From: a virus
Strand: one strand, 5' to 3'
IMG/VR virus record: IMGVR_UViG_3300045107_000152
Location: 1-33,374 of that record
DNA: 33,374 bases
Below, in pieces: positions 12,777 to 33,374 of the stretch. The notes under the pieces were generated by a model that saw only the letters and a list, made by a program, of their open reading frames with translations, did no database searches and was not told the origin of the DNA. The first letter of the stretch is position 1; every line of letters begins with the position of its first letter. Both the position numbers and the translations under genes were made by a program.

Positions 12777-12778
12777 TG

Positions 12779-15078: not shown

Positions 15079-15101
15079 TACAGTCACGTCCTCCACTAGG
15101 T

Positions 15102-16493
15102 TTATTCCTGTCCAGCGGACACCTGGTCTGCTGGGTTTTGGCTCACTGGTGCAATCGGCGGTGGCGGTGGTGCCGGCTCAAGCGCCTTCTTCTGGCGCTC
15201 TAGGTCAGGGTCGTACCCCAGCTTCTCAAGGATCGTGTCGTCAGAGACGCCGAAGCCCTTGTCGAGCTGCAATGCCTGCCGCTCCACCAGCGGGTCGCTC
15301 GGCAGCACTTCCGGCCAGTGAATCTCCGTCTCGATATCCGGCCCAAAGCCCCCAAGCTCAAGCAGGTGCGCGTTCAACTCCACCAGCATGTCGCCGTACA
15401 GCTGGCGCTTCGTCTCGGTCTTTTCCAACAACGGCTGGTACAGGATCTCAAGCGCCACCCCCGAGAGCTGGCCGACGTTGTCGACCTTGCCGGTTGCCAC
15501 TTCGGGGATGCGGGTTAGTTCGTGGATGGCTTCACGGAGCTTGTTGTAGAAGTCGAGACTGGCATTGATGTCGCCCTGAGCTTCAAGGTTCTGCAGTGTT
15601 GAGCCATCGGGCAGTGCCACGATGTCGTTCACCCCAAGATACACATCGGCGGGGTCAAAGCCCGTGCCCCACGTCTTTGGGTGAGCGTGATACCGGATGA
15701 TCTTGGACAGGTTGCTCAGCACAAAGTTGGCGGTGTGGTTGATCGACAGCACGTCGTCTTCGAGGTCGCTGATGCCCCAAAACTCGTTCGGCGCCGGGAG
15801 GTTCTGGCAATGCACAATCGGTGGCCATGCGTACGGCCACTTGGTTGTGGCGGTTGTGGTCCAGTCGTCCTCACTGCCATCAGGGTCGTTGCGCTGATCG
15901 GTGACTGTCCAGCTATCTGGTGCGTTAGCGGCACTCACTCGCTCGACAATCTGGCGAACGTTGACCATCTTGCGCGTGTATGGGTCACGCGCCGCATACG
16001 TGATGGTGAAGCGGATGACTTTCTCGAGATCTTCGACGTCCCAATCAACGTCGACGGTCGATGGATCGAGCACCACGATCCGCGGATACGGCATCGCTGG
16101 CACGATCTTGACGAATGGATGGCCGAAGATTCCGCCATTCAGCGCGATGGCCTGTAGCCGCGCCTGCTTCTTGTTTGCCCGCCACGCCGCATTCAGCCAC
16201 AGCTCGGCATCGTCTTCCACCTGGTCGGGCGCGTCACCCTCAACATCCGGTGGCGTATCGCCGGGCTTGGCGATCTCGAACTCAATACCACGGCCGAACA
16301 GGAACGAGACGCCCTTGTCGACGATGACGCGACTGAAGTTGACCTTCGTGTTGTCATCGGGCTCACCGACCTTGACCTTCAGCGGGTTCGGTAGGTAGCC
16401 CTCATAGGCACGATGGGCGCGCTGAAAGCGGAGCAGCCGCTTGTAGCGATCGTCCGCGGACATGTCGGTGAGATGGTTCGCGACAATTCCCAT
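15102..16493 (-). CDS. Portal protein (SPP1 gp6-like)
   Basis: A 463-residue protein after the large terminase. Portals form the dodecameric ring through which DNA enters and leaves the head. Seen: an N-terminal YKRLLRFQRAHRAYEGYLPN, then NFSRVIVDKGVSFLFGRGIE, which is a hallmark of the SPP1-type portal family, LNAAWRANKKQARLQAIALN, and VYLGVNDIVALPDGSTLQNL. The stem/clip region has REAIHELTRIPEVATGKVDN and GVALEILYQPLLEKTETKRQ. The C-terminus is Pro-rich. The start is two bases after the large terminase stop. SPP1-type portals usually go with headful packaging. Confidence 0.92.
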   Translation of the reverse strand: MGIVANHLTDMSADDRYKRLLRFQRAHRAYEGYLPNPLKVKVGEPDDNTKVNFSRVIVDKGVSFLFGRGIEFEIAKPGDTPPDVEGDAPDQVEDDAELWLNAAWRANKKQARLQAIALNGGIFGHPFVKIVPAMPYPRIVVLDPSTVDVDWDVEDLEKVIRFTITYAARDPYTRKMVNVRQIVERVSAANAPDSWTVTDQRNDPDGSEDDWTTTATTKWPYAWPPIVHCQNLPAPNEFWGISDLEDDVLSINHTANFVLSNLSKIIRYHAHPKTWGTGFDPADVYLGVNDIVALPDGSTLQNLEAQGDINASLDFYNKLREAIHELTRIPEVATGKVDNVGQLSGVALEILYQPLLEKTETKRQLYGDMLVELNAHLLELGGFGPDIETEIHWPEVLPSDPLVERQALQLDKGFGVSDDTILEKLGYDPDLERQKKALEPAPPPPPIAPVSQNPADQVSAGQE

Positions 16494-16495
16494 GC

Positions 16496-17791
16496 TTATT
16501 TCCAGGGGCTGCTCACGGCGCGCGGCTTCGGGTTTGGCCTGAACAGCCAGCCGCCGATGTAGCGCAGCGCGTCCAGTCGGTGAAACGTGCTCTTATCCTT
16601 GATCTCTTTGGTCGGATTGCCGTCATCGTCCAGCTTGCGGCTGTAATATTCGATTTCGGCGATGGTATCCAGGCAATCCTCAAATACCATCAGCTGCTGG
16701 CTCTTGAGGCCGCCGTATAGGCGATCGATGCCGACTTCGACCAGCTTCTGGTCTGGCTCCCTGATCGGCAGGCCCGCTGCGCGAAACTCCGATCGCCACT
16801 GGCCTTCACTGGCCGCACCGCCGACTGCGGTCGGTACACCTGGTTCGCCGTCAAGCAAGTCGGTAGCGTGCTGCTTGCTGGTCTTGCCGCCCGCCAGATA
16901 CTCGCGATAGAGGTAGCAGCGGCTGTTGCCAGGGTCTTGCGCCAAGAACACCGCCGCGGTATGGACACCTCCAAAGTCGACGCCGACGAACCGCCGCCAC
17001 TCTTTTGGGATAGCGAACCGCGGCACTTTGTGCGTGTCCGTGAAGCAGTCGAAGATTGCGCCGGCCGGTCGTGACACCTGACCGAGGTAGAACATCCTGA
17101 ATTTCCAGTCGGGCAGCGTGCGCTTGGCGCGCTCCATCTCTGCCTGTGGAAAGCTCGGGTTCATGGAGCTGGCGAAGTTGACCAGCTCAATCTCGGCACT
17201 GCCGGGCGCCTTGTCGACAATCTCGCTGCGCAGCCACTGGTTGTCTGGGTACGGCGTCGTGCAGACCAGCACACGACCCTGGTTGATAGCGACGCGGCGC
17301 TGAATGGCTTCCCAGCTGCCGCGCTTGAAGGCGGCTTGCCCAGCTTCGTCGCACACCACACCTTTGTAGGTGGCCGACTCGAGCGAGTCTGGGTTGGCCG
17401 CATATCCGAAGTACACGGCCGTGGGCCGATCGGGCACCGCGCCAAACGTGCGGTACGCGCCCTCAGCGGAGAACACGAACCGCTGAACCGGCGTTGCTCG
17501 GTAGCTGCCCAGCTGCAGCACATCCTCGAAAAATCGCCTGAACTCAGGCAGCGCCTTGAGCTCGAGCAACTTGAACGTCGGCGCCACAAACCCGTAGTCG
17601 CCTGGTCCCCGTTCGCGGATCTCTTTCCACAGCCACAGCGGCGCGAAACTGGTCTTGCCCGACTGTGTGCCAGCCACGATGGCGACGATGCGCTTCGTCG
17701 ACTGCCATGCTTGCCACTGGCCAGCGTGAAGGTGCAGGTTGAGCGAGCCATCAGCAGCCCGGCTGTACAGGTCCATGCGTGCCCCAGACAT
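16496..17791 (-). CDS. terL: Terminase large subunit
   Basis: A 431-residue packaging motor and nuclease. The ATPase half has Walker A IVAGTQSGKTSFAP (about residues 38-51), Walker B YKGVVCDEAGQAAF, and the coupling motif VLVCTTPYPDNQW. The nuclease half starts with FVGVDFGGVHTAAVFL, where Asp is the first metal ligand, and continues to FHRLDALRYIGGWLF, which holds the last acidic ligand. Length and motif order match large terminases of siphoviruses. The start MSGARMDLYS has GAGG close upstream. A gap of 91 bases separates it from the small subunit gene. Confidence 0.95.
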   Translation of the reverse strand: MSGARMDLYSRAADGSLNLHLHAGQWQAWQSTKRIVAIVAGTQSGKTSFAPLWLWKEIRERGPGDYGFVAPTFKLLELKALPEFRRFFEDVLQLGSYRATPVQRFVFSAEGAYRTFGAVPDRPTAVYFGYAANPDSLESATYKGVVCDEAGQAAFKRGSWEAIQRRVAINQGRVLVCTTPYPDNQWLRSEIVDKAPGSAEIELVNFASSMNPSFPQAEMERAKRTLPDWKFRMFYLGQVSRPAGAIFDCFTDTHKVPRFAIPKEWRRFVGVDFGGVHTAAVFLAQDPGNSRCYLYREYLAGGKTSKQHATDLLDGEPGVPTAVGGAASEGQWRSEFRAAGLPIREPDQKLVEVGIDRLYGGLKSQQLMVFEDCLDTIAEIEYYSRKLDDDGNPTKEIKDKSTFHRLDALRYIGGWLFRPNPKPRAVSSPWK

Positions 17792-17882: not shown

Positions 17883-18281
17883 TCACTCGACGCTGTCGTC
17901 TTTCGGAGTGCCGGGCGGGATGACGTTGATGATCATCGGCGGCAGTGGGTGGTTCGGGTCGCCGCCAACCTCGACTTTGGACTTGGTGCCAAAGTCCTCG
18001 GGGTGCCGGTGCTCGAGTATCCACGCCCGCGCACGCCAGTCCTGTGCCGTGTTGATGTACTCAAGGTTTGCCGCCGCGCCGTCAGCCTCAGCTTTGCGTA
18101 CCGCTGCGGAAAATGCGACAAAGCGCTCGTCACCTTCATCGCCGGCCTTCAGCCACTCGCGCAAGGTGTCGTGCGCAATACCCGCCGACATGGCCGCGAG
18201 ACGATACGTCAAACCCTTGCGCACCGCCTCAATGATGGTCTCTTCAACTGTCGGCGTTCGTTTGGTTGGCCTGCCGGTCAT
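17883..18281 (-). CDS. Terminase small subunit
   Basis: A 132-residue protein upstream of the large terminase. The N-terminal half has a helix-turn-helix suited to DNA binding (TVEETIIEAVRKGLTYRLAA, MSAGIAHDTLREWLKAGD), and a helical oligomerisation part follows (FSAAVRKAEADGAAANLEYI, WRARAWILEHRHPEDFG). The phrase AILEHRxPEDFG is typical of small terminases; here it is written WILEHRHPEDFG. The C-terminus is Pro-rich. I chose ATG 18281 (MTGRPTKRTP), as such proteins often start near GRPTK; an ATG at 18320 is the alternative. It recognises the packaging site, which may lie in or just upstream of this gene. Confidence 0.9.
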   Translation of the reverse strand: MTGRPTKRTPTVEETIIEAVRKGLTYRLAAMSAGIAHDTLREWLKAGDEGDERFVAFSAAVRKAEADGAAANLEYINTAQDWRARAWILEHRHPEDFGTKSKVEVGGDPNHPLPPMIINVIPPGTPKDDSVE

Positions 18282-18576: not shown

Positions 18577-18660
18577 TTGAGGTGGGAGAGGAAACCCCTA
18601 CATATATAAGGGGTCCGAGCTGTCCCCACTTGGTGAATGAGAGCGGGCCGTTACGTCAAG

Positions 18661-18988
18661 TGACAACCCGAGTGACAACCTGAGTGGTAGTATGGAGAGT
18701 TTTGGCTTCACGAAGCCATAATGACAACCCGTGACAACCCAATGACGACTTGGTGACGACTAAAAAACATGACTTTTGGGCTTCACGAAGCCATAATGAC
18801 AAGTAGTGACAACCAAAAGGGGTATTTATATATATATAGAATTCCCATCCTATCGTCGGTAAAATAAAAATTTCTAATGCGTATATTTCCGGTTTGGTTG
18901 TCACTACTTGTCATTATGGCTTTGGTATGCGAAAAAACAGACTTTTTTGGTTGTCACCAACTTGTCATTAGGTTGTCACGGGTTGTCA
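18661..18988. repeat. Repeat array A: phased TGACAACC sites converging on an AT-rich core
   Basis: Eight sites in one direction lie at 18661, 18673, 18722, 18732, 18743, 18754, 18796 and 18807 (TGACAACC, with TGACGACT and TGACAAGT variants). Six in the opposite direction (GGTTGTCA or ACTTGTCA) start at 18896, 18906, 18949, 18960, 18971 and 18981. Within groups the spacing is 10-12 bp, about one helical turn. All left sites point right and all right sites point left, towards an AT-rich core at 18818-18892. The last right-hand sites run into the 3' end of the next gene. This is the layout of a plasmid-type origin or centromere. The short minus-strand open frame across it looks like chance. Confidence 0.85.
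18788..18922. repeat. 30-bp perfect inverted repeat around a 75-bp AT-rich core
   Basis: The left arm, 18788-18817, and right arm, 18893-18922, are exact reverse complements over 30 bases. Each arm carries two sites of array A. The core contains TATTTATATATATATAG and AAAATAAAAATTT. The left side also holds two copies of the hairpin GGCTTCACGAAGCC (18704-18717 and 18779-18792) as part of a 27-bp direct repeat. Confidence 0.88.
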
Positions 18989-19275
18989 TTTTTACGATGA
19001 CACCCCCGCCACGCCTCGATCGCCGCTGCTCGCACGCTCGTGTACTCACCAGCTTGCATACGCTCCAGAATATCGGGCCGGTCTCGCGCGATGCGCGCGG
19101 TGAGGTAGGTGGCGTTCGTACTGCCACGCTCAATCAAGGTGTTATCAACACCTTGATACTCATCGCTCTTACGGTCCCCACCATGCTCGCCCAGTTCAGC
19201 GGGCTGTTGCGCCCGCTGCTGGACGCTGATGCGCTCGTTCACTGCGGCCTCAAGCGCATCTCTAACTACCGCCAT
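18976..19275 (-). CDS. Small conserved hypothetical protein (GGDRKSD / RDRPDILERMQAGE type)
   Basis: A 99-residue basic and acidic mixed protein. The phrases EHGGDRKSDEYQGVDNTL, GSTNATYLTARIARDRPDIL and ERMQAGEYTSVRAAAIEAWR recall a widespread small family seen in cyanobacterial, proteobacterial and Chloroflexota mobile DNA, where it often sits beside replication or partition genes; its function is not established. The last segment resembles the helix pairs of ParB-like DNA-binding proteins, but this is weak. The gene's 3' end overlaps two sites of array A, so its product could be the protein that reads that array. It is transcribed away from the plus-strand gene at 19519. No clear ribosome site precedes the ATG. 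Confidence 0.68.
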   Translation of the reverse strand: MAVVRDALEAAVNERISVQQRAQQPAELGEHGGDRKSDEYQGVDNTLIERGSTNATYLTARIARDRPDILERMQAGEYTSVRAAAIEAWRGCHRKNDNP

Positions 19276-20001: not shown

Positions 20002-20035
20002 GTGGCGAGACAGACAGCTGCCACCCTCTAAAAAA

Positions 20036-20527
20036 GTTACACCCTGTACGAAGGGTGTAACAGGGTGTAACGGAAGGTGTAACAGTGTTTTTATTGATTA
20101 GAAAGAGATATATCTATAAATGTTACACCTGTTACACCTTTTCTGCATATCTATAGAGATCGCGTGAGTCAAAAAATATTTTCCGTCTACCCCCCCCCGG
20201 CCAAAGGTTGATGATCGAAATATATTTTTTCGTCGTATATATTTTTCGATCGATTCAGGGTGTAACGTGTAACATGAACGGATATTACAGCATCGCAAAG
20301 CCATAAAATCGTGTTACGGCAATGTTACACCCCAGCCAAAGGTGTAACAAAACAATTGTGCTGAACTTAGCACTTTTCGCATCAGTACGCCAAATAGGAA
20401 ATTGGTTGCCGGGGCCAAGGCTGGCCAAGTGGCGGAAAATTAGGTGGATATTCCGATTTTAGGAGCGGTGCAGAGAGCAGCCCAAAGAACGATATGCTGT
20501 CCTAGCGCGGTAAAACGATGTTACACC
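20036..20527. repeat. Repeat array B: GGTGTAAC / GTTACACC sites, probable origin or control region
   Basis: Forward copies start at 20054, 20064, 20076, 20259, 20266 (variant) and 20341; reverse copies at 20036, 20122, 20131, 20324 and 20520. Neighbouring copies are 7-12 bp apart. AT-rich blocks lie between them (20088-20120 and 20219-20250), and a run of nine to ten C sits at 20191. The whole stretch 20002-20667 holds no gene. It is directly upstream of a small winged-helix gene and the replication protein, as expected for an iteron origin. Confidence 0.85.
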
Positions 20528-20595
20528 CTCTGCACTATGACATATCTGCACATGAAATTGACTGAATATGCACAGCGAAAAGTCGCGCTTTTCAC

Positions 20596-20897: not shown

Positions 20898-21015
20898 CTC
20901 GTGTGAATACTGGTGTATTCGGCTCTCAATCCAAAGTATGCCAGATATGTCACTCTTTGTCAATACTCCGTTTTCAATCTTTCAGCACTACAATCAAGAA
21001 AACGGAGATCCCTAT

Positions 21016-23649
21016 ATGTTCATCGATACCAGCGCCTACACTGGCGCATTGGACATGACTACCTCAAATCCGGCCACAGACGACATGGTCGTCGACACGA
21101 GTGGCACCGACATGGTCGTCGACTCAAACACCGACACCAGTGTCGCCAAGAACCCGAACGTCAATGAGTATGAGCAGGAGCGCATCATCATCGGCAAGGC
21201 GTCGCTCATTCAGCGCCACTACGACCATCTCAAGACATCGGGCATCTCAGACGAAATCATCGGTGAGCGCGGCTACACCTCGGTCTTCAGCTACAAAAAC
21301 TGGGAAGACCTCAAAGCGGGCAAACTTGCGTCGGGACAGCACAAATTCCCCGGCATCGCGTTCCCGAACTATGGCTTGGGCCAAGAGACCAACACGGTTT
21401 GGGTGTTGAGGCCAGACAACCCGCGAAAGCCAAAAGGCAGCGACCGCTCTATCAAGTACGAGTGGCCAACGGGTGTGCCAACCAATATCGACATGCTACC
21501 GCGCTTTTTCGAGCTGCTACGCGACCCCACCATCCCGATCATCATCACAGAGGGCACAAAAAAAGGCGACTCGATCGCCACGCACTTCACGGGCAAGCAC
21601 CTGGCAGTGCCCCTGGCTCTCAACGGCGTCTGGGGCTGGATTACGAAGGACAAGAAGTTCGACGGCAAGCTGATTAACTCGGAAATCTACCAGATCAACC
21701 TCGAAAACCGAAAGGTCCGCCTGGCATTCGACAGCGACGTGGTGGCCAAGCCGAGCGTTCGGAAGGCGCTGTCGGACCTGGCTGGCATCCTCCATGGGCG
21801 GCGCGCTGTCATTGAGTACTACGCCTTGCCCGACAAGGGCGACGGCAAAGCCGGCATAGACGATCTGCTGGCGGTGGACATGACGCCAGCAGAGCTTGAC
21901 GCCTACTTGCAACCGTGGATCGGGACAATCAAGCGCCAGCCGACCAAGATCACGATGTTCGATGGTAAGAGCATGGACTTACCGGCTGGCTACTCGCTCG
22001 ACAATGGCGTGCTGAGCAAGGTGAGCGATGGTGGTTTGGGCGAGGTGCGACGCGACATCTACCATGGCAACATCGCCCCGATCGGCACTGCAGAAGATCT
22101 GGCGACGAAGGAGCAGCACTTGACCGTCGCGTTCACCAATGCCCGCGGCGTCCGGCCAAACAAGGTCACCGCGCCACACTTTGAGCTCGCGACCAAGGCA
22201 GGTGTGATCAAGTACCTGGCCGCGGCTGGGGCGTCGATACATGAGACCAACGCCAGAGAGGTCGCGGCCTATCTGATTGAGACCACCGGCTTGAACGTAG
22301 ACACACTGCCGCATACCTGCCACTCGAGCAAGCTGGGCCTAGTCGACGACTCGATCGTGTTGCCCGATCGCACGGTGTGCCGCGACGCCGACAAACCGCC
22401 GATTGCCTACGCGGGCCACGTCCCAGCTCACCCAGCCGGCAGCGATCGGCTGTATGTCGACATGCTGCGGCGCATTCTGGTTGAGCACTGGAACGTGCCA
22501 TCGCTGTGGCTGATGCTGGCGTTCAGCTTAGCGTCGCCGATCATCGCGCGAATGAGGCCGATGCGCAATCCGGTACTGTACGTGAGCGGCCCAAGCGGCG
22601 GCGGCAAAACGACCGGCGTCAAGTTCTGCCTGGGGGCGTGGGCGGCGCCAAATGGAGCGCCGTTTGTGGTTCAAGCGACCGCACGTACAACCGCTGCTGG
22701 CTACTATCAGAATCTGGTACACCTGAACGGTCTGCCGGTGCTGTTTGACGAAGCTCACCAGGGCAAACCCGAGGTGCTGCAGGCAGTCGGCTACGGCTTT
22801 GCGAACAGCGAAAGCTATGCTAAAGGCGGGCGTGACGGCACACCGGCCGGCTCAGAGAAGCTGCGCGGCACGCTGGTTCTTGCTGGCGAGGCGCGACTCG
22901 AATGGCAGAACGCCGGTAGCACCAATCGCGTGCTGTGGATTGATCACGGCAAATACCCGTTTCTGGGCGCCGGCCCCGAGAGCGCGCTGGGCGCCAAGCG
23001 AGCGCAGATGCTCGAGAATGCCTACCTCAATGGCGCTGGTGTGCTCGGCCCGATGGTGGCCGAGTACATCTGGCCACGCTGGGATGAGTTCAAGGGCGAT
23101 GTGGCTCAGTTGCGCAAGGAAATAATCGAAGACGACGACAGCATGTCCAAGATCAGTGCCTGGACAGAGACGCTGGCGATTGCGCAGCAGACGCTGAACT
23201 ACATGTTCGACATGCTGAACTTCGACATGCCGGAAGTGAGCGAGCTACTGAATGAGCTGCCGAGTCAGGCGCTGGCGATGCTGACCGAAGGGCGCAAGGA
23301 GCAAGACCCGGTTGAGATGGCGTGGGAGAAGCTGCAGACGCTGCTGACCTATGGCGAGCTCGAGACGCGCAATGGCTGGGTGTCTCGGGTGTATCAGCAG
23401 CAAACGATTGCTCAGCGCCACGAAATCGGCGAAAACGCATGGCGCGTCCCGACCAACACCAAGGCATTTGACGAGATCGTGGGCAAGTCGGCGGTACAAA
23501 TGTACGGCCAGAAGTGGCTCGAACAGGGCCGCGTCCAGCGAAACAGCAAAGACGGCAGCGCGACGTTCACGTGCCGAGTTAATGGGGCACTGGTCAAGGC
23601 GCTGTATGTGCCGATCGATACGTCCAGTGACGAAGACGACTTAGGATAG
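21016..23649 (+). CDS. Replication protein: TOPRIM-like DUF3854 domain plus DUF927-type helicase ATPase
   Basis: An 877-residue protein from ATG 21016 (MFIDTSAYTG), chosen because ACGGAG lies eight bases upstream; an ATG at 20938 would add 26 residues without a ribosome site. The N-terminal part (to about residue 310) matches DUF3854: ISDEIIGERGYTS early on, then IPIIITEGTKKGDSIA and KVRLAFDSDVV, the Glu and DxD of a TOPRIM fold as in primases. The C-terminal part has Walker A LYVSGPSGGGKTTGVKF (near residue 520) and Walker B LPVLFDEAHQGKPE, as in DUF927 helicases. Such primase/helicase chains replicate plasmids and integrative elements. No separate DnaB-like helicase or polymerase is seen, so the host replisome is presumably used. 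Confidence 0.87.
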   Translation: MFIDTSAYTGALDMTTSNPATDDMVVDTSGTDMVVDSNTDTSVAKNPNVNEYEQERIIIGKASLIQRHYDHLKTSGISDEIIGERGYTSVFSYKNWEDLKAGKLASGQHKFPGIAFPNYGLGQETNTVWVLRPDNPRKPKGSDRSIKYEWPTGVPTNIDMLPRFFELLRDPTIPIIITEGTKKGDSIATHFTGKHLAVPLALNGVWGWITKDKKFDGKLINSEIYQINLENRKVRLAFDSDVVAKPSVRKALSDLAGILHGRRAVIEYYALPDKGDGKAGIDDLLAVDMTPAELDAYLQPWIGTIKRQPTKITMFDGKSMDLPAGYSLDNGVLSKVSDGGLGEVRRDIYHGNIAPIGTAEDLATKEQHLTVAFTNARGVRPNKVTAPHFELATKAGVIKYLAAAGASIHETNAREVAAYLIETTGLNVDTLPHTCHSSKLGLVDDSIVLPDRTVCRDADKPPIAYAGHVPAHPAGSDRLYVDMLRRILVEHWNVPSLWLMLAFSLASPIIARMRPMRNPVLYVSGPSGGGKTTGVKFCLGAWAAPNGAPFVVQATARTTAAGYYQNLVHLNGLPVLFDEAHQGKPEVLQAVGYGFANSESYAKGGRDGTPAGSEKLRGTLVLAGEARLEWQNAGSTNRVLWIDHGKYPFLGAGPESALGAKRAQMLENAYLNGAGVLGPMVAEYIWPRWDEFKGDVAQLRKEIIEDDDSMSKISAWTETLAIAQQTLNYMFDMLNFDMPEVSELLNELPSQALAMLTEGRKEQDPVEMAWEKLQTLLTYGELETRNGWVSRVYQQQTIAQRHEIGENAWRVPTNTKAFDEIVGKSAVQMYGQKWLEQGRVQRNSKDGSATFTCRVNGALVKALYVPIDTSSDEDDLG

Positions 23650-23662: not shown

Positions 23663-24475
23663 GTGGTCACGAGCACCACCATCACACCCAACCACGGCAA
23701 AATCGAGCTTGGAGCGGCGCCACGTGCAATCGCACTGGCGCCCACCCCCACGCCGCTACGACTATCGCGGTGGCTGTACTGCAGCGACATTCACTCGCCA
23801 TTGCACAGCGAGCTGTGGATTGAGCGTCTAGCCCGAGTCGGCATGGCGCTCGAGGTGGACGACCTAATCATCGGTGGCGACCTGTGCGACTTCGACAGCT
23901 TGTCGGCTCACCCCGCCGATCTGCCGCAGACCGACCTGAATCAGTCGATCGAGGTGACCGGACAGGTGCTGCGCTACCTCAAAAGCGCGTTCAGGACCAT
24001 CTACCTGCTGCCCGGCAATCACGACCGCCGACTGGCCAAGAAGCTCGACAAGCATCTGAGCTTCACGTACCTCGTGAAGATGTTCGTCGGCGACACACCG
24101 GGCTTTGTGGCCACCGACGCCGACTTCTACCTGATCGATAGTGAGTACGCCGGGCGCGCGGGATGGTCAGTCGGCCACCCGCGCTTTTTTTCGAGCTACC
24201 CGACCAAGGGGCTCGACCAGGTGGCACTGCAACGCCAGCGGCACGTCATCGGCGCGCACTCGCACACACTGGGCGCCAGCAAAATCGGGCCGTACTGGTG
24301 CATCTCACCCGGCCACATGATGCGGCCCGACTTGACGCCGTACCTCACCCGCTCGGCTGGCCTCAGCAAGCACGCCGATCAGTCGGCCGGCTTCGTGCTG
24401 GTGGAGCATGAGCCCGCCGCCGATGTCGTGACGTTGTTCGCCGATGGTCTCACGAGGTGGCGCGATTATGTCTAA
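23663..24475 (+). CDS. Calcineurin-like metallophosphoesterase
   Basis: A 270-residue protein with the full metal-binding set of the family: YCSDIHSP (D-x-H), IIGGDLCDFDSL (GD), LLPGNHDRRL (GNHD) and GAHSHTLGA (GHxH-type). The end has CISPGHMMRPDLTPYL. Members cleave phosphodiesters or phosphomonoesters; in phages and mobile elements some act on nucleic acid ends. The start is GTG 23663 after GGGAGGG, 13 bases from the replication protein stop, so it is cotranscribed and its role is probably tied to replication or repair. The N-terminal 30 residues before the domain are Thr/Pro-rich and variable. Confidence 0.87.
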   Translation: MVTSTTITPNHGKIELGAAPRAIALAPTPTPLRLSRWLYCSDIHSPLHSELWIERLARVGMALEVDDLIIGGDLCDFDSLSAHPADLPQTDLNQSIEVTGQVLRYLKSAFRTIYLLPGNHDRRLAKKLDKHLSFTYLVKMFVGDTPGFVATDADFYLIDSEYAGRAGWSVGHPRFFSSYPTKGLDQVALQRQRHVIGAHSHTLGASKIGPYWCISPGHMMRPDLTPYLTRSAGLSKHADQSAGFVLVEHEPAADVVTLFADGLTRWRDYV

Positions 24476-24744: not shown

Positions 24745-24789
24745 AAGAGACCGAGCACCCGATCGATGGTGCTCAGGTCTCTTTTTTTA
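24745..24789 (+). terminator. Strong intrinsic terminator
   Basis: A 15-bp stem (left arm 24745-24759, right arm 24768-24783, one bulged A) with an eight-base loop is followed by a run of seven T. It ends plus-strand transcription between the 48-residue gene and the converging repressor. Its right arm also encodes the last codons of the repressor. Confidence 0.93.
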
Positions 24790-25054
24790 TCTCGTCTTCA
24801 AATGCGATGAGTTCGCGCGGGTGAACCCCGAGTGCGGCGGCAATGTCTTCGAGGGTCTTGAGGTGTACAGACTCGAGCGGCGGACCACCTTTTGAGGCAG
24901 TCGCGCTATTGCGCCAGAACCGCTGTAGGGTGGTAAGGCCGACATCAGCCTTCCGGCCAAGCTCGGCCATGTTGAGATCGCGAGCTTCAGCAAGCTCGCG
25001 AACTCGGAACCGCAACCTAGTCTGTTCTTTTGGATTTTTCCGCACTGCACCCAT
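24773..25054 (-). CDS. CI-like repressor (helix-turn-helix)
   Basis: A 93-residue XRE/Cro-CI-type DNA-binding protein. Helix-turn-helix: LRFRVRELAEARDLNMAELG, RKADVGLTTLQRFWRN, with the helical end LKTLEDIAAALGVHPRELIA. There is no C-terminal peptidase domain, so it is unlikely to be cleaved by RecA like lambda CI. The start at 25054 (MGAVRKNPKE) is chosen because the promoter at 25063-25091 would start RNA at or next to this ATG; upstream ATGs lie inside or before that promoter. It is divergent from the cro-like gene, the typical lysogeny switch, and probably binds CGGATATCCG at both copies. Confidence 0.85.
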   Translation of the reverse strand: MGAVRKNPKEQTRLRFRVRELAEARDLNMAELGRKADVGLTTLQRFWRNSATASKGGPPLESVHLKTLEDIAAALGVHPRELIAFEDEIKKET

Positions 25055-25062
25055 ATACGGCG

Positions 25063-25091
25063 ATTGTAACACACAACAGCATACTGTTGAA
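25063..25091 (-). promoter_or_regulatory. Repressor promoter, giving a leaderless mRNA, with near-palindromic site in its spacer
   Basis: On the minus strand TTCAAC (25091-25086) and TACAAT (25068-25063) are 17 bases apart. RNA would start about 25056-25054, at the ATG. The spacer holds AACAGCATACTGTT (25075-25088), a palindrome except at one base pair, a candidate operator different from CGGATATCCG. Confidence 0.77.
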
Positions 25092-25161: not shown

Positions 25162-25380
25162 ATGAAACTCAAAATCCAAGCGGTTGCGGCACCGCGCGGC
25201 ATCACGATCGCCGAACTCAGCCGCGAAACCAAGATCACGCTCGGCACGATCAGGCGCTATTGGTACAGCAGCAGCACAGGGCTCGAGCGCGACGCCGGCA
25301 CACTTGGCGACATTCACCTACCGTACCTGCAGCGCATCGCCGACTACCTGAACATCAAGCCAATCGACCTTATCGAATGA
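25162..25380 (+). CDS. Cro-like small helix-turn-helix regulator
   Basis: A 72-residue XRE-type protein (KIQAVAAPRGITIAELSRET, KITLGTIRRYWYSSSTG, then LQRIADYLNIKPIDLIE). It shares the same fold and a similar ending with the divergent repressor. Start ATG 25162 has AGGAG seven bases upstream. As the first gene rightward of the switch it takes the position of cro. It probably represses the repressor promoter and its own operon, acting on the operators at 25075-25113. Confidence 0.85.
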   Translation: MKLKIQAVAAPRGITIAELSRETKITLGTIRRYWYSSSTGLERDAGTLGDIHLPYLQRIADYLNIKPIDLIE

Positions 25381-25389
25381 GGCACCCCA

Positions 25390-25539
25390 ATGCGCAGACT
25401 CATCGCACTCTACCACTACCACCAGCTACGCGAGCTGATGACCGCCCGCCGCCAGGAGTTCTTCGCCTGGAGCGAGTACATGGACTACGACTACGACCGC
25501 AACGAATGGGTTGCCAAGAGAGGAGCCCGCCCATGCTGA
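25390..25539 (+). CDS. Small basic/aromatic protein of unknown function
   Basis: A 49-residue protein: MRRLIALYHYHQLRELMTAR, then RRQEFFAWSEYMDYDYDRNE. It follows the cro-like gene by nine bases, with TGAGG upstream. It overlaps the next gene by seven bases (ATGCTGA), so it is translated as part of the operon. It is rich in Tyr, Arg and Glu and probably helical. No family is recognised. The tight spacing on both sides is the main support that it is real. Confidence 0.62.
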   Translation: MRRLIALYHYHQLRELMTARRQEFFAWSEYMDYDYDRNEWVAKRGARPC

Positions 25540-26201
25540 CTGCGAATGACTTTACGAAGCCGGCCACCGCTGGCCAGTCGGCTGTTCAGCCACAGGTGAT
25601 CTACCTGCAGGCACCGCCCCGTATGGGCGGCAGTATGGTGGTGACTGTGGTTCTGCTGGGCGTCATCGGCGTGCTAGGCTACGCGCTGCTCCATGGCGGC
25701 ATCACGATCGTGCCCGACACGACGCCAGCCGCGGTGATGAACGCGAGCGGCGGCACGATCAAGGTGCCGGTCTCAATGCCCGCTGCGCCAGCCCCCACGG
25801 CCGCTGCCATCACGGCCAACCAGCAAGCCCCCGCCGTACCGACTGCCGCCGCCCAAATTGCCGAGCAAGCGCCCGCCGCCGCGAACACCCTACCGACCGC
25901 CGCCGTGACGGTAGCGACTGTGCCAGCCGCTGTGGTGGTCAAGCCCGACCTGAGCAAGCCGCTGCGGTACGCGGCCGGTTCGGATATGCGGCCCACGGCA
26001 CTGCCAACGGACGCGCCGCCGCCGACACCACTCACGGCCGGTACGGACTGGTGGGCCAGTGCCGATGGCAAGTGCGTGTTCGCCGTGCGGAGCGGCACGA
26101 CCTACGAGCTGTGCCAGAACGACGCGTACACAGACAATGAGGCGAAGTCGGTCGGCGCCTACCTTCACGACGGCCTACTGCCGGGCACCGAGGTGCGGTG
26201 A
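25533..26201 (+). CDS. Single-pass membrane protein with Ala/Pro-rich stalk and small C-terminal domain
   Basis: A 222-residue protein from ATG 25533 with GAGGAG upstream. Residues about 33-55 form a transmembrane segment (MVVTVVLLGVIGVLGYALLH). An Ala/Pro/Thr-rich, unstructured stalk of about 100 residues follows, then a C-terminal domain of about 60 residues with two Cys (WWASADGKCVFAVRSG, TTYELCQNDAYTDNE) that could form a disulfide outside the cell. The N-terminal 30 residues lack a positive run that would fix topology. Its stop overlaps the next start (TGATG). It fits a surface or envelope-spanning part of the membrane complex encoded by this operon. No named family is recognised. Confidence 0.75.
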   Translation: MLTANDFTKPATAGQSAVQPQVIYLQAPPRMGGSMVVTVVLLGVIGVLGYALLHGGITIVPDTTPAAVMNASGGTIKVPVSMPAAPAPTAAAITANQQAPAVPTAAAQIAEQAPAAANTLPTAAVTVATVPAAVVVKPDLSKPLRYAAGSDMRPTALPTDAPPPTPLTAGTDWWASADGKCVFAVRSGTTYELCQNDAYTDNEAKSVGAYLHDGLLPGTEVR

Positions 26202-26803
26202 TGACACTGCTACGCCAGAAAGTGAGTGTCTTGGTCGCTGGCGTAGCGGTTGTCGGCGCGCTGGTGACCACCGGCCGGCTCACACTCCCGGTGCTGGCGA
26301 TGCCCGATCGCATCCACGCGGCTGGCTACACGATCACACTCGGCAAGCCGACACCAGCACCGGTCGCCAACCCGGCAGCAGCACCAGCACCAGCGGTTAT
26401 CGGCAGCGATGAGCGCCAGCGATGGGCAGTCGACTTACTGGCGCGACTGGGCAACACAGCGCCGACTGCCGAGACGGTCAAGTTCGTGGTTGCCTGGTCG
26501 ATTGCTGAGGACGCGTGCCTCACTGGCTGCGGCTACAGCAGCGCATTCGAGCGCCACAACCCGCTCAATACGACCCAAACCGGCTACGGTGAGTACATGA
26601 CCATCAACGGCGATGGCGTGAAGGCGTATCCCGATCGCGACAGCGGACTCGCCGCTACTGTCCAGACCTTGACCAACGGCTACTACCCGCACATCGTAGC
26701 TGGCCTGCAGAGCAACCAACCCGACATGGCCCTGAACTACGCCGAGCTTGGCGTGTGGGGCACGGGCGGCGCGAACGTCGACACAATCTACCACGGCAAC
26801 TAA
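26201..26803 (+). CDS. Membrane-anchored lysozyme/transglycosylase-like peptidoglycan hydrolase
   Basis: A 200-residue protein. Residues about 6-30 are a signal anchor (VSVLVAGVAVVGALVTTG). A Pro/Ala linker follows, then a lysozyme-like domain: FVVAWSIAEDACL (likely catalytic Glu in IAED), SSAFERHNPLNTTQTGYGEY, and YPDRDSGLAATVQTLTNGYY, which is the usual core of such hydrolases. The phrase NPLNTT after the catalytic Glu is typical. It is coupled to the preceding gene (TGATG) and followed by a membrane protein and the ATPase. In that setting it may open the wall for a transfer complex; it could instead be the phage endolysin, as no other lysin is visible in the window. Confidence 0.8.
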   Translation: MTLLRQKVSVLVAGVAVVGALVTTGRLTLPVLAMPDRIHAAGYTITLGKPTPAPVANPAAAPAPAVIGSDERQRWAVDLLARLGNTAPTAETVKFVVAWSIAEDACLTGCGYSSAFERHNPLNTTQTGYGEYMTINGDGVKAYPDRDSGLAATVQTLTNGYYPHIVAGLQSNQPDMALNYAELGVWGTGGANVDTIYHGN

Positions 26804-26825
26804 CGGAGACGAGAGGAGAACCCCG

Positions 26826-27353
26826 ATGGCAGTTACAGCACAGAACCTACCCAGCAAGCTCGACTTTGAGCTGCTGTTCTGGACCACCATGGCCGCGGTT
26901 GCCGAAATCGCAATCGCCAGCGCGATCTGGCTCAGCGGCGCCTGGTTCACGGCCGTGTTCGTCGCCGACATGCTGGCGTTGTTCGGCCGCACATTCGACA
27001 TCTCGACCTGGCAGCATTGGATTTGGATACCGTTGCTCGTGAGCGCGATTGAGCTGCCGATCGTGAAGCTCTGGTCAAAGATGCCCGTGATGGCACGCGC
27101 GGTCGGTATCCTGGTGGTGATTTTCGACTTTGGCAGCACCTGCTACGGCATCGCGAAGACGGTCGGCGGTGTCGAGGTCAAGCTGTTTGGCGGGGTTCGC
27201 GTACCAACCGCCGATCGGAGCATCTGGCCAACCGCGATCGGTGTGTGCGGCAGTGCCATCGTCACCTTCGGTCCTGAGCACGCGATTTTCGAAGGTGTCC
27301 AGCAGCTGTGGAACGTCGTCAAGGCGGTCAAGAACGCCTGGGGAGGCCGCTAA
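26826..27353 (+). CDS. Polytopic membrane protein
   Basis: A 175-residue protein with about four hydrophobic segments: LLFWTTMAAVAEIAIASAIW, WFTAVFVADMLALFG, WIWIPLLVSAIELPIVKLW and AVGILVVIFDFGSTCYGI, and a moderately hydrophobic stretch near the end. Start ATG 26826 has GAGGAG upstream. Its stop overlaps the next start as TAATG, which links it to the ATPase. A membrane partner of the ATPase is the simplest reading; a holin is an alternative because a hydrolase gene precedes it. No named family is recognised. Confidence 0.78.
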   Translation: MAVTAQNLPSKLDFELLFWTTMAAVAEIAIASAIWLSGAWFTAVFVADMLALFGRTFDISTWQHWIWIPLLVSAIELPIVKLWSKMPVMARAVGILVVIFDFGSTCYGIAKTVGGVEVKLFGGVRVPTADRSIWPTAIGVCGSAIVTFGPEHAIFEGVQQLWNVVKAVKNAWGGR

Positions 27354-28576
27354 TGGACCTGTTCACCCTTTTCAGCAACCCAGTGGTCCAGATGGTGTTG
27401 ATCGTCGCGGCCTTGGTGCTCGGCCTGAGCACGAAGCACCGCTGGGAGCGATACGTGCCACGCGGCCCCAAGATCTCGCATGAGAACTTCTACAAGCAAG
27501 TGCCCGCCACACCAGCGCCACGGCCGACAGCGCCAGCAGCAGCGCCCGCGCCACGGCCTATGACCAACCAGCCGATTGGCTGGTCAAGCCCGGTCTGGCA
27601 ACTCAACACTCCAACCGTGCAGACAGTCAAGCTAAGCACGATCGCCAGCAGCGACAACGTTCTGGTGGTCGGCCAAAAGGGCGCGGGCAAGACCACGTTG
27701 CTGCGCAAGATCATCGCCGCGCGTGCCACGGAGACACTGATCGCGCTGGACCCACACGGCGCACCAGGCAAGTGGCCATGCGGCACAGTCGGCGCCGGCC
27801 GCGACTATGAAGCCATCGGCGATGCCCTTCTCCATATTGAGCACGACATGGACGATCGCTTCAAGCAGCTGGCGCGTGGCGAGGTGGTTGAGGGGCAGTT
27901 CCTGCGCCGATCGGTGGTAACCGACGAGTACCGCAGCATCGCCGACAAGCTGAACGGCAAAAATGGCGCGGTCGACGCGGGCAACCTCATGCTCAATCGT
28001 ATCTCTGAGGGGCGCAAGGTCGGCGAGTGCGCGCTAGTCGCGTGCCACAACGACACGGGTGAGGCGCTGGGCATCACCGGCAACACAGATATGAAGACGT
28101 GCTTCGACTGGATTGTGTACATGGGTGGCTTGGTCGACTCGCGCCGCACCGACAAGTGCCCGGCCGACGTGAAGGCGGCGGCACTGAAGCTCGAGCGGCC
28201 GGCCGTGGCGTGGCTGACTGAGAAGAACCAGTGGTTCGTCCTTGACGACGATCTGGCCATGCCGCTGGCCAGCGAACCGCTCGAACTACTCGAACCACTC
28301 GAACTGGTTCGGCCGCAGGGTGCTGTTTTGAGTGGTTCGAACCAGTTCGCGACCCAGTACGACCGAACCGGTTCGGCTGGTTCGCCGCATCAGGACGCGG
28401 TACGCGGTGGTTCGGAGTTGAAGTCGGTCAACTCGCGCTACGAACTGGTACGCGAACTGGTACGGGCTGGCATGAGCGGCAACAAGATCAACGAGGTGCT
28501 TGGTGGCACCCGTAACGACAATCTCGCAATGGTTCGGCAAGCCAAGCAGGAGCTCGGCTTGGGTGACACAGTCTAG
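27353..28576 (+). CDS. Membrane-anchored FtsK/HerA-type ATPase with C-terminal helix-turn-helix
   Basis: A 407-residue protein starting at ATG 27353, which overlaps the previous stop. Residues about 5-24 form a transmembrane segment (LFSNPVVQMVLIVAALVLGL). A Pro/Ala linker leads to a P-loop ATPase: Walker A VVGQKGAGKTTLLRKI (near residue 105), a conserved ETLIALDPHGAPGKW, Walker B LRRSVVTDEYRSIADK, and ECALVACHND. The C-terminal 50 residues look like a small winged helix (YELVRELVRAGMSGNKINEV), as in FtsK gamma and TraB domains that read short DNA repeats. Before it the DNA is rich in GGTTCG repeats. The family pumps DNA through membranes. Neighbouring membrane and hydrolase genes fit a DNA transfer complex; no relaxase is seen. 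Confidence 0.82.
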   Translation: MDLFTLFSNPVVQMVLIVAALVLGLSTKHRWERYVPRGPKISHENFYKQVPATPAPRPTAPAAAPAPRPMTNQPIGWSSPVWQLNTPTVQTVKLSTIASSDNVLVVGQKGAGKTTLLRKIIAARATETLIALDPHGAPGKWPCGTVGAGRDYEAIGDALLHIEHDMDDRFKQLARGEVVEGQFLRRSVVTDEYRSIADKLNGKNGAVDAGNLMLNRISEGRKVGECALVACHNDTGEALGITGNTDMKTCFDWIVYMGGLVDSRRTDKCPADVKAAALKLERPAVAWLTEKNQWFVLDDDLAMPLASEPLELLEPLELVRPQGAVLSGSNQFATQYDRTGSAGSPHQDAVRGGSELKSVNSRYELVRELVRAGMSGNKINEVLGGTRNDNLAMVRQAKQELGLGDTV

Positions 28577-28594
28577 CAGAGAGGAGCCCCTACG

Positions 28595-29161
28595 ATGGCA
28601 CTTTCACTCACCGTCAAACCCTTCATCGCAGCGCCCGATCTGTCGTGGTGGCAGCGCATCAATAAGGTCTGGTGGTTACAGCGTATCCCTATGGCGCTGC
28701 TGGCGCTGCCGAGCGCCTACGGCGTCGGCGCATTCGCCAGTGAGCACCTGCCGTGGCCGTTCAACTGGTTCGCTGGCGCGGCGTTCGAGAGTGCCTACAT
28801 CGGCGCCATCGCGCTGGCCGATCAGCAGAGCGACGTGAAGGACCAGGTAACCACGCTGCTGTGGTTTCTGGTCAATCTGTTCGCCGTCGTGTGCAGCGCG
28901 CTGTCGAGCGTGCTGTTCTTCGCAGGCGGACACTACAGCGACATCACACCAGAAGCCGTTACGCACGGCGTACCGCTGGCCGTGCTGGGCTTCTTCTACG
29001 GCTTGCTGCTCCATCGCATGGCCAGCAAAGCCGCTCAGGCGGTCGCTGAGGCCGGCACAGAGGTGGAGTGCCCGAACTGCCACCGCATGCTGGTGGTCAA
29101 GGCGGGCGGCAATCCGGCCGCGACACTGAACGGCCACAAGACACACTGCAAAATGCCGTAG
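28595..29161 (+). CDS. Polytopic membrane protein with C-terminal zinc-finger-like motif
   Basis: A 188-residue protein with about four hydrophobic segments (WLQRIPMALLALPSAYGVGA, FAGAAFESAYIGAIALA, TLLWFLVNLFAVVCSALSSV, VPLAVLGFFYGLLL). A soluble end follows with CPNCHRML and later HKTHC, a likely zinc-binding CxxC...HxxxC. Start ATG 28595 has GAGGAG upstream, 18 bases after the ATPase stop. The pairing of a membrane part with a nucleic-acid-type finger suggests it tethers DNA or the ATPase at the membrane. It is the last gene of the operon, ahead of array C. Confidence 0.77.
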   Translation: MALSLTVKPFIAAPDLSWWQRINKVWWLQRIPMALLALPSAYGVGAFASEHLPWPFNWFAGAAFESAYIGAIALADQQSDVKDQVTTLLWFLVNLFAVVCSALSSVLFFAGGHYSDITPEAVTHGVPLAVLGFFYGLLLHRMASKAAQAVAEAGTEVECPNCHRMLVVKAGGNPAATLNGHKTHCKMP

Positions 29162-29181: not shown

Positions 29182-29280
29182 AGGGTCTGGTCAGGGTCTC
29201 ATGAGGGTCTGCCCAGACCCTGACCAGGGTCTCACGAGGGTCTGGTTAGGGTCTCACGAGGATCTGGTTAGGGTCTCACA
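29182..29280. repeat. Repeat array C: nine exact 11-bp units, AGGGTCT plus four bases
   Basis: Units start at 29182, 29193, 29204, 29215, 29226, 29237, 29248, 29259 and 29270, every 11 bases without exception. Seven read AGGGTCT, the fourth is its reverse complement AGACCCT, and the eighth is AGGATCT. The four-base tails partly alternate CACG and GGTT, giving a 22-bp super-repeat. The array fills the gap between the transfer operon and the excisionase-like gene. Candidate roles: excisionase filament and att-arm region, or loading site for the ATPase. Confidence 0.93.
29189..29225. repeat. 11-bp inverted repeat inside array C
   Basis: GGTCAGGGTCT (29189-29199) and AGACCCTGACC (29215-29225) are exact complements with a 15-base loop. 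An inner alternative hairpin GGGTCTG/CAGACCC (29205-29220) competes. They result from the inverted fourth unit and may act as a transcription pause or binding centre. Confidence 0.75.
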
Positions 29281-29307: not shown

Positions 29308-29628
29308 ATGGAGCAACTGCTGTTCACGATCGAAGAGGTCTGCAAGATACTCAACTACGGCAAGACCAAGGTACGCGAGCTCATACACGACGGCAAGCTC
29401 AAGACCGTCGAGCGCGGCAAGGGCTTGCGCGTCACGTTGTTCTCAATCGAATCATACGCACGAGGAGATGGCGCGTGCCACGAAAAAAGAAGCCAACCGA
29501 AAAGCCAAAAGGGCACTGGTTTAACGCGAAAACGGGGCGGCACCACTGGCGGATCGAAGTCGACGGCAAACGGTACGAAGTCAGCAGTAAAGACGAAGCT
29601 CGGGCCAAAGCTCGATTTGAAACTCTGA
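29308..29628 (+). CDS. Excisionase-like winged-helix protein (C), long overlap with integrase
   Basis: A 106-residue frame. Residues 1-52 are a clear winged helix of the excisionase class: LFTIEEVCKILNYGKTKVRE, LIHDGKLKTVERGKG, then VTLFSIESYA. After about residue 55 it is a basic Lys/Gly/Thr/Ser-rich tail that lies over the integrase N-terminus in another frame (overlap 154 bases). Start ATG 29308 has AAAGGAAC upstream. It is immediately upstream of the integrase and downstream of array C, so it is the best recombination directionality factor candidate. Whether the tail is under selection cannot be seen; the domain alone would be functional. Confidence 0.82.
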   Translation: MEQLLFTIEEVCKILNYGKTKVRELIHDGKLKTVERGKGLRVTLFSIESYARGDGACHEKRSQPKSQKGTGLTRKRGGTTGGSKSTANGTKSAVKTKLGPKLDLKL

Positions 29629-30749
29629 AGCAGAAACTGGCGGATCGACTGCCGGTCGGCAGCGCGGTCGAGACGCTTAGCGAGCTTGCCGAACGGTGGC
29701 TAACGACTGTGGTAGTGAACGACACCGACAAGCTAACCACGCTGGGAAACTATCGGATGCGGCTCTACACCTACGTGTTGCCGACGCTTGGCGACTATCC
29801 GGTCGACGTCGATGTGTTGACTCTGCGTGTTGGCCGCGCATGGCTGAACGCCGCAGTCGAACACGTTCGCCCCCAAACCGGCAAGCCCTGGTCGCGTGCC
29901 GTGATTGGTCAAGCGCTGAGCCTCATCCAGCGAGTGCTCGATCTTGCGGTCGAAGAAAAAACGATCACGTACAACCCGTTCGCCTCTCTCAAACCCCCGC
30001 GCGTGAAGACCGTGCGGCACGACGAAGACGGCGAATTGCGAATAGGAGTAGGAAGACCGATGAACGACCAACAGATTGAGCAGTTCTTGGGTTTGATTAC
30101 CGAGCGCGGCGAATGGCTTGAAGCGCTGTTCTATCTCGCCGTGTACACGGGTATGCGGCGTGGCGAGCTGCTGGGCCTGCGTTGGCAGGACTACGATTCC
30201 GGCGCCAGAACCATTCGAGTTCGGCAGCAGATCACCATGCTCGCCTCCGCTAAACACCTCTCCGAACCCAAAAATGCCGCGGCCTGGCGAACCATACCGC
30301 TGCCCGATGACCTTGTCGATTTGATCGATTTTCATCGCGAGCGCTGGCTGGAGTCACGCAATCGCTATCGCGAGCGCTGGCCGGCTGACAACGACCTCAT
30401 GTTCTGCTACGAGTCAACGGGAACCCCGATGGACCCTGCGAACTTGCAGCGTACGTTTCGCCGCATTCTGGAATTGCTCACGAAGCGCCACGGCGAGGTG
30501 GCGGGCTTTGGTCGATACAAGACGGTGACTGATGCCAGCGGAAAGCCGCGACAGAGGTTTGTCGGCAGGTTTCGCATTCACGATCTGCGGCACAGCGCAA
30601 ACCAGCGCCTCAAGGACGCTGGTGTCGGCGCAAAAACCCGTGCCGCGATACTGGGACATGGCAGCATAGTCGTGAACGAGATCACCTACACACATGTCAA
30701 CGAAGCCGACAAGCGCGCTGCGATTGAGCGCGTCGCTCGGAAGAAGTGA
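29475..30749 (+). CDS. int: Tyrosine site-specific integrase
   Basis: A 424-residue phage-type integrase. The N-terminal arm-binding region is basic (PRKKKPTEKPKGHWFNAK), followed by the SAM-like core-binding domain (TLSELAERWLTTVVVNDTDK). The catalytic domain shows all expected residues: Arg in YTGMRRGELLGLRW (about 228), Lys in SEPKNAAAWRTIPL, HxxR in FRIHDLRHSANQ (about 369-372), His in ILGHGSI and nucleophile Tyr in EITYTHVNEAD. The start is GTG 29475, seven bases after GAGGAG, inside the excisionase-like frame. It integrates the element at a site that is not visible here. Confidence 0.95.
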   Translation: MPRKKKPTEKPKGHWFNAKTGRHHWRIEVDGKRYEVSSKDEARAKARFETLKQKLADRLPVGSAVETLSELAERWLTTVVVNDTDKLTTLGNYRMRLYTYVLPTLGDYPVDVDVLTLRVGRAWLNAAVEHVRPQTGKPWSRAVIGQALSLIQRVLDLAVEEKTITYNPFASLKPPRVKTVRHDEDGELRIGVGRPMNDQQIEQFLGLITERGEWLEALFYLAVYTGMRRGELLGLRWQDYDSGARTIRVRQQITMLASAKHLSEPKNAAAWRTIPLPDDLVDLIDFHRERWLESRNRYRERWPADNDLMFCYESTGTPMDPANLQRTFRRILELLTKRHGEVAGFGRYKTVTDASGKPRQRFVGRFRIHDLRHSANQRLKDAGVGAKTRAAILGHGSIVVNEITYTHVNEADKRAAIERVARKK

Positions 30750-32932: not shown

Positions 32933-33374
32933 TGTGTTGCGGTATTTCTCGCTCTACGATCGACGTGGTATTTGTTTCATTACAAAATGCCAGCGGTACA
33001 GGTATGTTGCCCGTACAACTTACGCGCTGGGGGTCCGGGGGCGGCTTCGCCAGCCCCAAACATCTCGCTTTTGGCTAGTATCCAGCACATTCATCCCGGA
33101 TAACAGCCTCAAGCGAGTAGCTAGGCGGGCGGCCGCGTGCGCCGCGCGTGCGCCGCGCTACTTATACATTCGTGAGAATAAGCTGCCAAGGATGACTCGT
33201 CGCGATACTGTGCCCCAGTAATACCAAATTCGGCTAAATGCTTATGTTTTGGTGGGGGGTGTGGGGGCGGCAAAGCCACCCCCACGAATCTCGTTTGTGT
33301 TGCGGGGGGGGGGGGGGGGGGGGGGCCCCCCCCCACAAACAACATGTTATGAAGCGCTGTGGAGAATTCGAGCG
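32933..33374. other. Gene-free end region with repeated GC hairpins
   Basis: No convincing gene. Two related hairpin elements lie at 33037-33057 (GGGGGCGGC...GCCAGCCCC) and 33261-33285 (GTGGGGGCGGC...GCCACCCCCAC), each followed by ATCTCG and T-rich bases. An 11-bp GC-rich unit (GCGTGCGCCGC) is repeated twice at 33135-33156. At 33304-33334 there is a run of 22 G followed by nine C. Short frames here are Pro- or Gly-rich by base composition only. Confidence 0.7.

Follow-up and report, generated by a model that had tools for sequence, protein, structure and literature searches.

A membrane-anchored FtsK/HerA-type ATPase operon with a phased repeat array in a temperate siphovirus genome, a possible DNA-movement module

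The window analysed here is the whole of IMGVR_UViG_3300045107_000152, a linear IMG/VR virus record of 33,374 bases whose contig ends are possibly incomplete. Its early region carries an operon for a membrane-anchored ATPase and several membrane proteins, which we read, with a probability of about 0.42, as a DNA-movement module of the type found in integrative elements, residing in a temperate siphovirus and having cell-to-cell spread as its likeliest use. Movement of the element's own double-stranded DNA (dsDNA) at the membrane, with cell-to-cell spread and partition taken together, is probable. Behind the operon lies an 11-bp-phased repeat array, which is new here and was absent from an earlier note on this DNA. 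The operon and array consist of the following features.

25162-25380, (+) strand: Cro-like regulator, first in the operon (Pfam HTH_26, 4.6e-8, 33.6 bits against a cut-off of 22)
25390-25539, (+) strand: open reading frame of 49 amino acids (aa), no assigned role, called by coding score; 7-nt overlap with the next gene
25533-26201, (+) strand: single-pass membrane protein, 222 aa, transmembrane (TM) segment at about residue 35, Ala/Pro-rich stalk
26201-26803, (+) strand: membrane-anchored putative peptidoglycan hydrolase of one domain, 200 aa, N-terminal TM segment
26826-27353, (+) strand: polytopic membrane protein, 175 aa, about three TM segments, directly 5' of the ATPase gene
27353-28576, (+) strand: membrane-anchored FtsK/HerA-type ATPase, 407 aa, helix-turn-helix (HTH)-like C-terminus
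28595-29161, (+) strand: membrane protein, 188 aa, TM segments, C-terminal zinc motif CPNC...LNGHKTHC, Spd-like candidate
29182-29276, strand not applicable: array immediately 3' of the operon, with nine AGGGTCT-core sites phased at exactly 11 bp

The tight operon that the earlier note had described behind the cro-like gene is borne out by gene calls, translations and short junctions: neighbouring genes overlap slightly or lie 9-22 nt apart, and one-base overlaps join the 222-aa gene to the hydrolase-like gene and the polytopic gene to the ATPase gene. The ATPase has an N-terminal hydrophobic helix, a Walker A motif (GQKGAGKT, residues 107-114) and a Walker B motif (VVTDE). Its FtsK/HerA type, as named in that note, is not readable from the window protein alone, which gives only sub-threshold Pfam matches (PF01580, 18.2 bits, below the cut-off of 24), but is clear from a family profile built from 24 ATPase members. 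This profile matches EccC (7.6e-20) and FtsK (4.8e-17), with the Walker A and Walker B regions collinear in both, as well as HerA, TrwB and a DNA translocase coupling protein; the most frequent Pfam match among the members is PF01580 (15 of 24), followed by AAA models and DUF87/HerA (11). Judging from the profile, the window ATPase clearly belongs to the FtsK/HerA superfamily, and the type of this predicted motor, not its task, is thereby settled. At the C-terminal end a pattern AGxSxxxI...GGxR is conserved, and HTH families are matched by only two of the 24 members.

The product of 26201-26803 has the N-terminal anchor expected of an anchored peptidoglycan hydrolase, as the earlier note had called it, whereas its hydrolase identity and activity are suggested through a homologue in Kouleothrix. 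It gave no matches in Pfam, PHROG and PDB searches and no relatives in scans of phages and plasmids, but shares 42% identity with the first domain of a Kouleothrix protein made up of a TM segment, this domain and an additional NlpC/P60 domain. PDB matches of the Kouleothrix protein include hydrolases of Tn916-type elements, and it resembles the two-domain wall hydrolases of the Tn916 family in being an anchored hydrolase with NlpC/P60; unlike these, the window copy lacks NlpC/P60 and its first domain belongs to no recognised family.

All five membrane and motor genes of the window recur in the same order on a 12-kb contig of Kouleothrix aurantiaca. The two ATPases are 38% identical over their full length, and this genome is the closest of those matched; the polytopic protein shares 31% identity with its syntenic counterpart, the N-terminus of the single-pass protein (25533-26201) shares 33% over 69 aa, and overall the matches of the single-pass protein and of the zinc membrane protein are weak yet positive. 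The earlier note had proposed searching for the same operon outside virion genomes: here the whole five-gene operon was found again, but a contig of 12 kb is too short to show if virion genes belong to the element as well. When virus contigs were scanned with the window ATPase or primase as single proteins, no relatives emerged, whereas a profile of four ATPases matched 28 of 400 Chloroflexota genomes (about 7% of the sample), the weakest matches being long P-loop proteins that possibly belong to other families. The ATPase gene is often directly preceded by a gene for a protein with 2-4 TM segments, and the gene that follows it frequently encodes a membrane protein, which at several loci has an HTH-like end or a zinc motif. 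The zinc membrane protein (cluster C7) is also found in Kouleothrix, G027, L160, L162 and L177, with an invariant CxxC, and the G027 protein is the closest to that of the window (38% identity, CPxC...LNGHKxHC). G027 and G029 are IMG/VR contigs with related capsids and related membrane ATPases; in G029 the ATPase gene is preceded by a ParB-like 672-aa gene and a gene for a DUF2637 membrane protein, which had no match among plasmids or phages, and followed by a serine recombinase gene. Nine further IMG/VR matches to the ATPase alignment were dropped, namely a copy of G029 and eight anchor-free P-loop proteins with weak or no match to the family profile. An orphan ATPase with two membrane partners lies at 5396-7421 of L154 (G111) amid chromosomal genes (epimerase, tRNA methyltransferase), with no integrase seen nearby, and a small cyanobacterial plasmid from Tolypothrix (L001, 20.7 kb) combines an integrase with a distant relative of the ATPase.

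Related modules occur both with and without virion genes. In seven prophage copies (G151, G322, G119, G084 and three G143 contigs) a large terminase (TerL) lies on the same contig, 17-32 kb from the ATPase, that of G084 being broken. In the one prophage checked, G151, terminase, portal and capsid were identified and a distinct amidase-type endolysin gene lies next to the virion genes; its early genes are, in order, integrase, DUF3987 helicase, Toprim primase, ParM-like actin, a small gene, a membrane protein, the ATPase, a membrane protein and Replic_Relax. Loci L168-L172 (G084, G322, G151, G143, G119) form a syntenic prophage family in five Chloroflexota genomes, with ParM-like actin, Replic_Relax and the membrane ATPase. 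A 10.8-kb element without detected virion genes lies on the 5.26-Mb contig G159. Its limits are defined by exact empty sites: four relatives have DNA in which position 2590 of L160 runs straight on to about position 13,423. It encodes a Toprim primase, a helicase, a zinc membrane protein, the ATPase and a serine integrase, and the zinc protein and ATPase are its only envelope genes in the hydrophobicity scan. The lack of virion genes means here that no phrog_2 TerL was found anywhere in the 5.26-Mb genome and that a PHROG scan of about 60 kb gave no head or tail family among the matches listed (25 of 51 families), the one terminase-labelled exception being the ATPase's own weak match. The virion-free occurrence sought in the earlier note was accordingly found for the ATPase and the zinc membrane protein, but not for the whole operon. 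In the ATPase tree, virion-bearing and TerL-less elements are intermixed, with five changes, no more than one of them forced.

The array is made up of seven exact direct copies of AGGGTCT, one inverted copy and one mismatched copy (AGGATCT), and its lag-22 score is 40.1, compared with a shuffle maximum of 11.0. Arrays with a lag of 11 or 22 bp follow the module not only in the window but also in Kouleothrix, G027 and six prophages, and in these relatives they lie 0.1 to 1.1 kb after the ATPase; in the shuffle test of the relatives, the score of L168 was reached by one of 60 shuffles and all others by none. Kouleothrix has an AGGGTCT array at the same place relative to the operon, and in G027 AGGGTC sites follow directly on the first membrane gene downstream of the ATPase, whereas the L168-L172 prophage clade has a different core, with TTCANATCG-type units, and L179 has ACGGTAGTGAA. 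The array is not universal, since the G159 element and several other ATPase loci lack a significant one. Six related virus contigs without a detected ATPase have no 11-bp array of comparable strength. The AGGGTC core is common to the three loci with a CxxC...GHxxxC finger (window, Kouleothrix and G027). Because G027 shares the core and has the closest zinc protein, although its ATPase is not the nearest relative of the window's, the comparison hints that the zinc membrane protein, besides the ATPase, may read the array.

Two other interpretations of the array were set aside. As a universal marker of the module AGGGTCT failed, as an IMG/VR scan for triples at 11-bp spacing returned 14 other virus contigs, compared with six for a control heptamer, and these 14 have no ATPase on the stretch examined, for which reason the bare motif is not diagnostic. 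A role as Int/Xis arm sites is disfavoured, as no integrase or excisionase gene was seen beside the array in G027 and Kouleothrix. In the low-GC virus contigs L215, L216, L221, L224 and L226, AGGGTCT/AGACCCT at 11-bp spacing lies inside a 245-aa gene, possibly for a replication protein.

Motor type, membrane partners, array and distribution follow the same logic as the TraB/clt/Spd systems of Streptomyces plasmids and actinomycete integrative conjugative elements (pSAM2, pIJ101, pSVH1), in which a single FtsK-type protein recognises short repeats (PMC4170104; PMC5365140; PMC3218068). In the TraB precedent these are 8-bp repeats at clt, and SpdB2 is a membrane protein which binds both dsDNA and TraB (PMC4170104; PMC5365140). 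The window likewise has a single FtsK-superfamily motor, with a predicted FtsK/HerA core, an anchoring N-terminal membrane segment and a putatively DNA-binding C-terminal end; membrane partners that are small and varied, one of them having a domain of nucleic-acid type; direct repeats of short length adjoining the module, a candidate clt/TRS-like site for a TraB-type protein; an integrase with primase-type replication genes; and repressor control. Unlike TraB, the motor is smaller, with 1-2 TM segments, and the array unit is 11 bp instead of the 8 bp of clt; the closeness in sequence is limited to the P-loop core, two members here have an anchored hydrolase, the genomes include full virions and the host phylum is Chloroflexota. 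When the window is compared with published traits of actinomycete integrative conjugative elements (PMC3218068), it has an integrase (tyrosine or serine type being expected; PF00589 at 30060-30704, 5.6e-20), but its primase has DUF3854 and DUF927 only, instead of RepSA, RepAM (PF12307) or Prim-Pol (PF09250), PF01580 stays under its cut-off for the Tra protein, and a full virion block is present in place of the expected absence of virion genes. The layout of such elements that the earlier note had recognised therefore stands as a resemblance to TraB/clt/Spd and fails on replication type, PF01580 score and freedom from virion genes.

Other systems share single traits with the module. TdtA of ICETh1 (Thermus transjugation) is also a HerA/FtsK-type ATPase of an integrative element at the cytoplasmic membrane, but its operon includes a NurA-like nuclease and Tth111II, neither of which was seen here, and has no detected DNA-binding domain (PMC5365140). 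R1 parMRC and R388 stb likewise place phased iterons beside a motor-type gene and intertwine partition with transfer; R1 ParM and R388 StbB are actin-like or ParA-like ATPases, whereas the motor here is FtsK-type and membrane-anchored.

If the module does serve spread between cells, induction would lead to excision and replication of the element, the zinc membrane protein and/or the HTH of the ATPase would bind the array and tether the dsDNA circle to the membrane, and an ATPase ring would form and pump the dsDNA. The anchored hydrolase would open the wall locally, the small membrane proteins may line or position a pore, and a copy would be driven into a cell that touches or lies next to the first, which would give the element, as with TraB/clt/Spd, another way to spread besides virions. 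Filamentous growth is frequent among Chloroflexota. The anchored hydrolase would tip the balance towards wall passage in the window and in Kouleothrix. The more specific proposal, a lineage of tailed temperate Chloroflexota phages which is both a virus and a TraB-like conjugative element, with a dsDNA circle that is loaded at the 11-bp array and passed to adjacent cells via a membrane pore, is doubtful. Several observations weigh against transfer. The motor is small (407 aa, one TM segment); the hydrolase is confined to the window and Kouleothrix, with no recognisable copy in the other modules examined; AlphaFold2 models of the ATPase (two-sequence input) and the hydrolase reached a pLDDT of only about 40 and were unusable for fold comparison; the virion-free G159 element lacks a significant array; the 14 virus contigs with the bare motif show no ATPase on the stretch examined; and the ParM-like and ParB-like genes and iteron format taken up below are what partition would predict. 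The spread by cell contact envisaged in the earlier note is not borne out by the present sequence evidence.

Partition based on 11-bp iterons is likewise compatible with this evidence. The module would then hold the excised, replicating prophage in place and segregate it, or move it out of the closing septum as FtsK does, with the array as centromere and no transfer between cells. We consider this explanation somewhat unlikely, yet partition or tethering explains much of what was found, because ParM-like and ParB-like genes adjoin related modules: the prophage group of five species has, next to the module, a gene for ParM-like actin and, in the ParR position, a small gene, and the ParB-like 672-aa gene lies upstream in G029. 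In these relatives such neighbours favour partition. The 11-bp iterons share the format of the R1 parC centromere (PMC4949242), and R388 stb illustrates how partition and transfer functions overlap (PMC3098194). However, the window, the Kouleothrix contig and G027 have no ParM-like neighbour, in ParM-bearing loci the array follows the ATPase module instead of lying beside parM, an anchored wall hydrolase has no clear role in partition, and an integrated prophage has no need of it. An infection-stage device, either an early membrane pump pulling phage DNA into the cell or a complex excluding other phages, would agree with the early position after cro, the membrane location and the DNA motor fold; it is improbable, as both the ATPase and the zinc membrane protein are retained in the 10.8-kb G159 element, which has no detected virion genes and would not inject DNA from a capsid of its own.

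Lysis or packaging is unlikely as the main role of the module. The gene order of TM protein, hydrolase-like protein and polytopic protein could be that of a lysis cassette, with the anchored hydrolase as signal-anchor endolysin and the polytopic protein as holin, and a lytic role for the window hydrolase is conceivable because no other endolysin was identified on the incomplete contig; the standard endolysin may simply be missing, since the contig may lack its ends. A cassette of this kind is nevertheless very improbable, given that the operon is early and not late, that G151 has a second lysis system in its separate endolysin, that most modules have no recognisable hydrolase copy and that a lysis role fails to explain the ATPase, the zinc membrane protein and the array. 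Least credible of all, and barely to be expected, is a factor for packaging or intracellular replication, which might be suggested by a distant terminase-labelled match of the ATPase (phrog_2666, 2.4e-4) and by a phage FtsK-like protein guessed to aid replication (PMC11536984; PMC13299392), but the window has its own large terminase, portal and primase/helicase, the ATPase is membrane-anchored with membrane partners, and it also occurs in the G159 element. The search for the outcome that the earlier note had named as refuting its proposal, a standard lysis cassette and a packaging protein in close relatives, came out negative as far as the ATPase and its membrane partner are concerned, because virion-bearing relatives have their own TerL and G151 its own endolysin. 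We retain DNA movement with cell-to-cell spread as our tentative reading.

The remaining genome provides the following features.

2266-17791, (-) strand: virion block with fibre, tail proteins, tape measure, capsid, scaffold, portal and large terminase (PHROG matches)
13533-14438, (-) strand: major capsid protein (PHROG match, 1.8e-58)
17883-18281: small-terminase-like gene (weak match)
20938-23649, (+) strand: DUF3854-DUF927 primase/helicase (Pfam 3.2e-14 and 2.2e-13; phrog_8841, 8.6e-32)
23663-24475, (+) strand: metallophosphoesterase (phrog_221, 3.8e-16), cluster C19, common to Kouleothrix and G027
24773-25066, (-) strand: divergent cI-like HTH repressor (phrog_8 transcriptional regulator, 7.3e-6)
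29308-29628, (+) strand: excisionase-like HTH_17 protein (Pfam HTH_17, 1.9e-9; PHROG excisionase matches)
29475-30749, (+) strand: tyrosine integrase (phrog_1, 3.6e-57)

With an integrase, a repressor switch, capsid, portal, terminase, tape measure and tail, the window has the gene set of a temperate siphovirus, and from its matches the virion block is complete and of siphovirus type. Both the co-occurrence of the operon with a full virion block in one genome (PHROG matches, same codon usage) and the presence beside it of int/xis and primase/helicase genes (integrase, excisionase-like HTH gene, DUF3854-DUF927 protein) agree with the earlier note. A chimeric assembly is unlikely, because codon usage is alike in operon, virion and replication genes (relative synonymous codon usage, r = 0.95) and two other virus contigs, G029 and G027, combine related ATPases with virion genes. 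The host is most likely a Chloroflexota bacterium, because capsid relatives with named hosts (67-74% identity) are all from Anaerolineae (Anaerolineales, Levilinea, Anaerolineaceae) and a further one is found in Kouleothrix (38% identity).

Some further features of the window stand apart from the module. At the contig end, 273-1823 (+) encodes the C-terminal specificity part of a type ISP restriction-modification enzyme (PF18135, 5.8e-77), the remainder of which is missing; it may be defence cargo or host flank. A coiled-coil protein with a C-terminal TM segment (1841-2251, (-) strand) closes the tail genes and is a candidate late lysis-associated protein. Upstream of the primase, at 18659-18990 and 20027-20530, GTGACAACC repeats lie inside a 109-nt imperfect inverted repeat, together with many direct and inverted GGTGTAAC iterons, and this repeat region is likely a replication origin or control region. 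A run of 22 G near the right end (33304-33325) is probably an assembly or sequencing artefact.

In the open-access literature we found no description of this module in Chloroflexota, and FtsK-family proteins are mentioned in a few phages, their function not being established (PMC11536984, PMC13299392). Should the module prove to transfer DNA, a whole phylum would have viruses and conjugative elements built on one chassis, and TraB-type dsDNA conjugation would not be restricted to actinomycetes. If it serves partition only, it would represent a maintenance system that combines a membrane motor with a repeat site of its own and is present both in prophages and in integrative elements for which no virion genes were detected. 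Whether transfer takes place can be tested directly with the array and the minimal 10.8-kb element.

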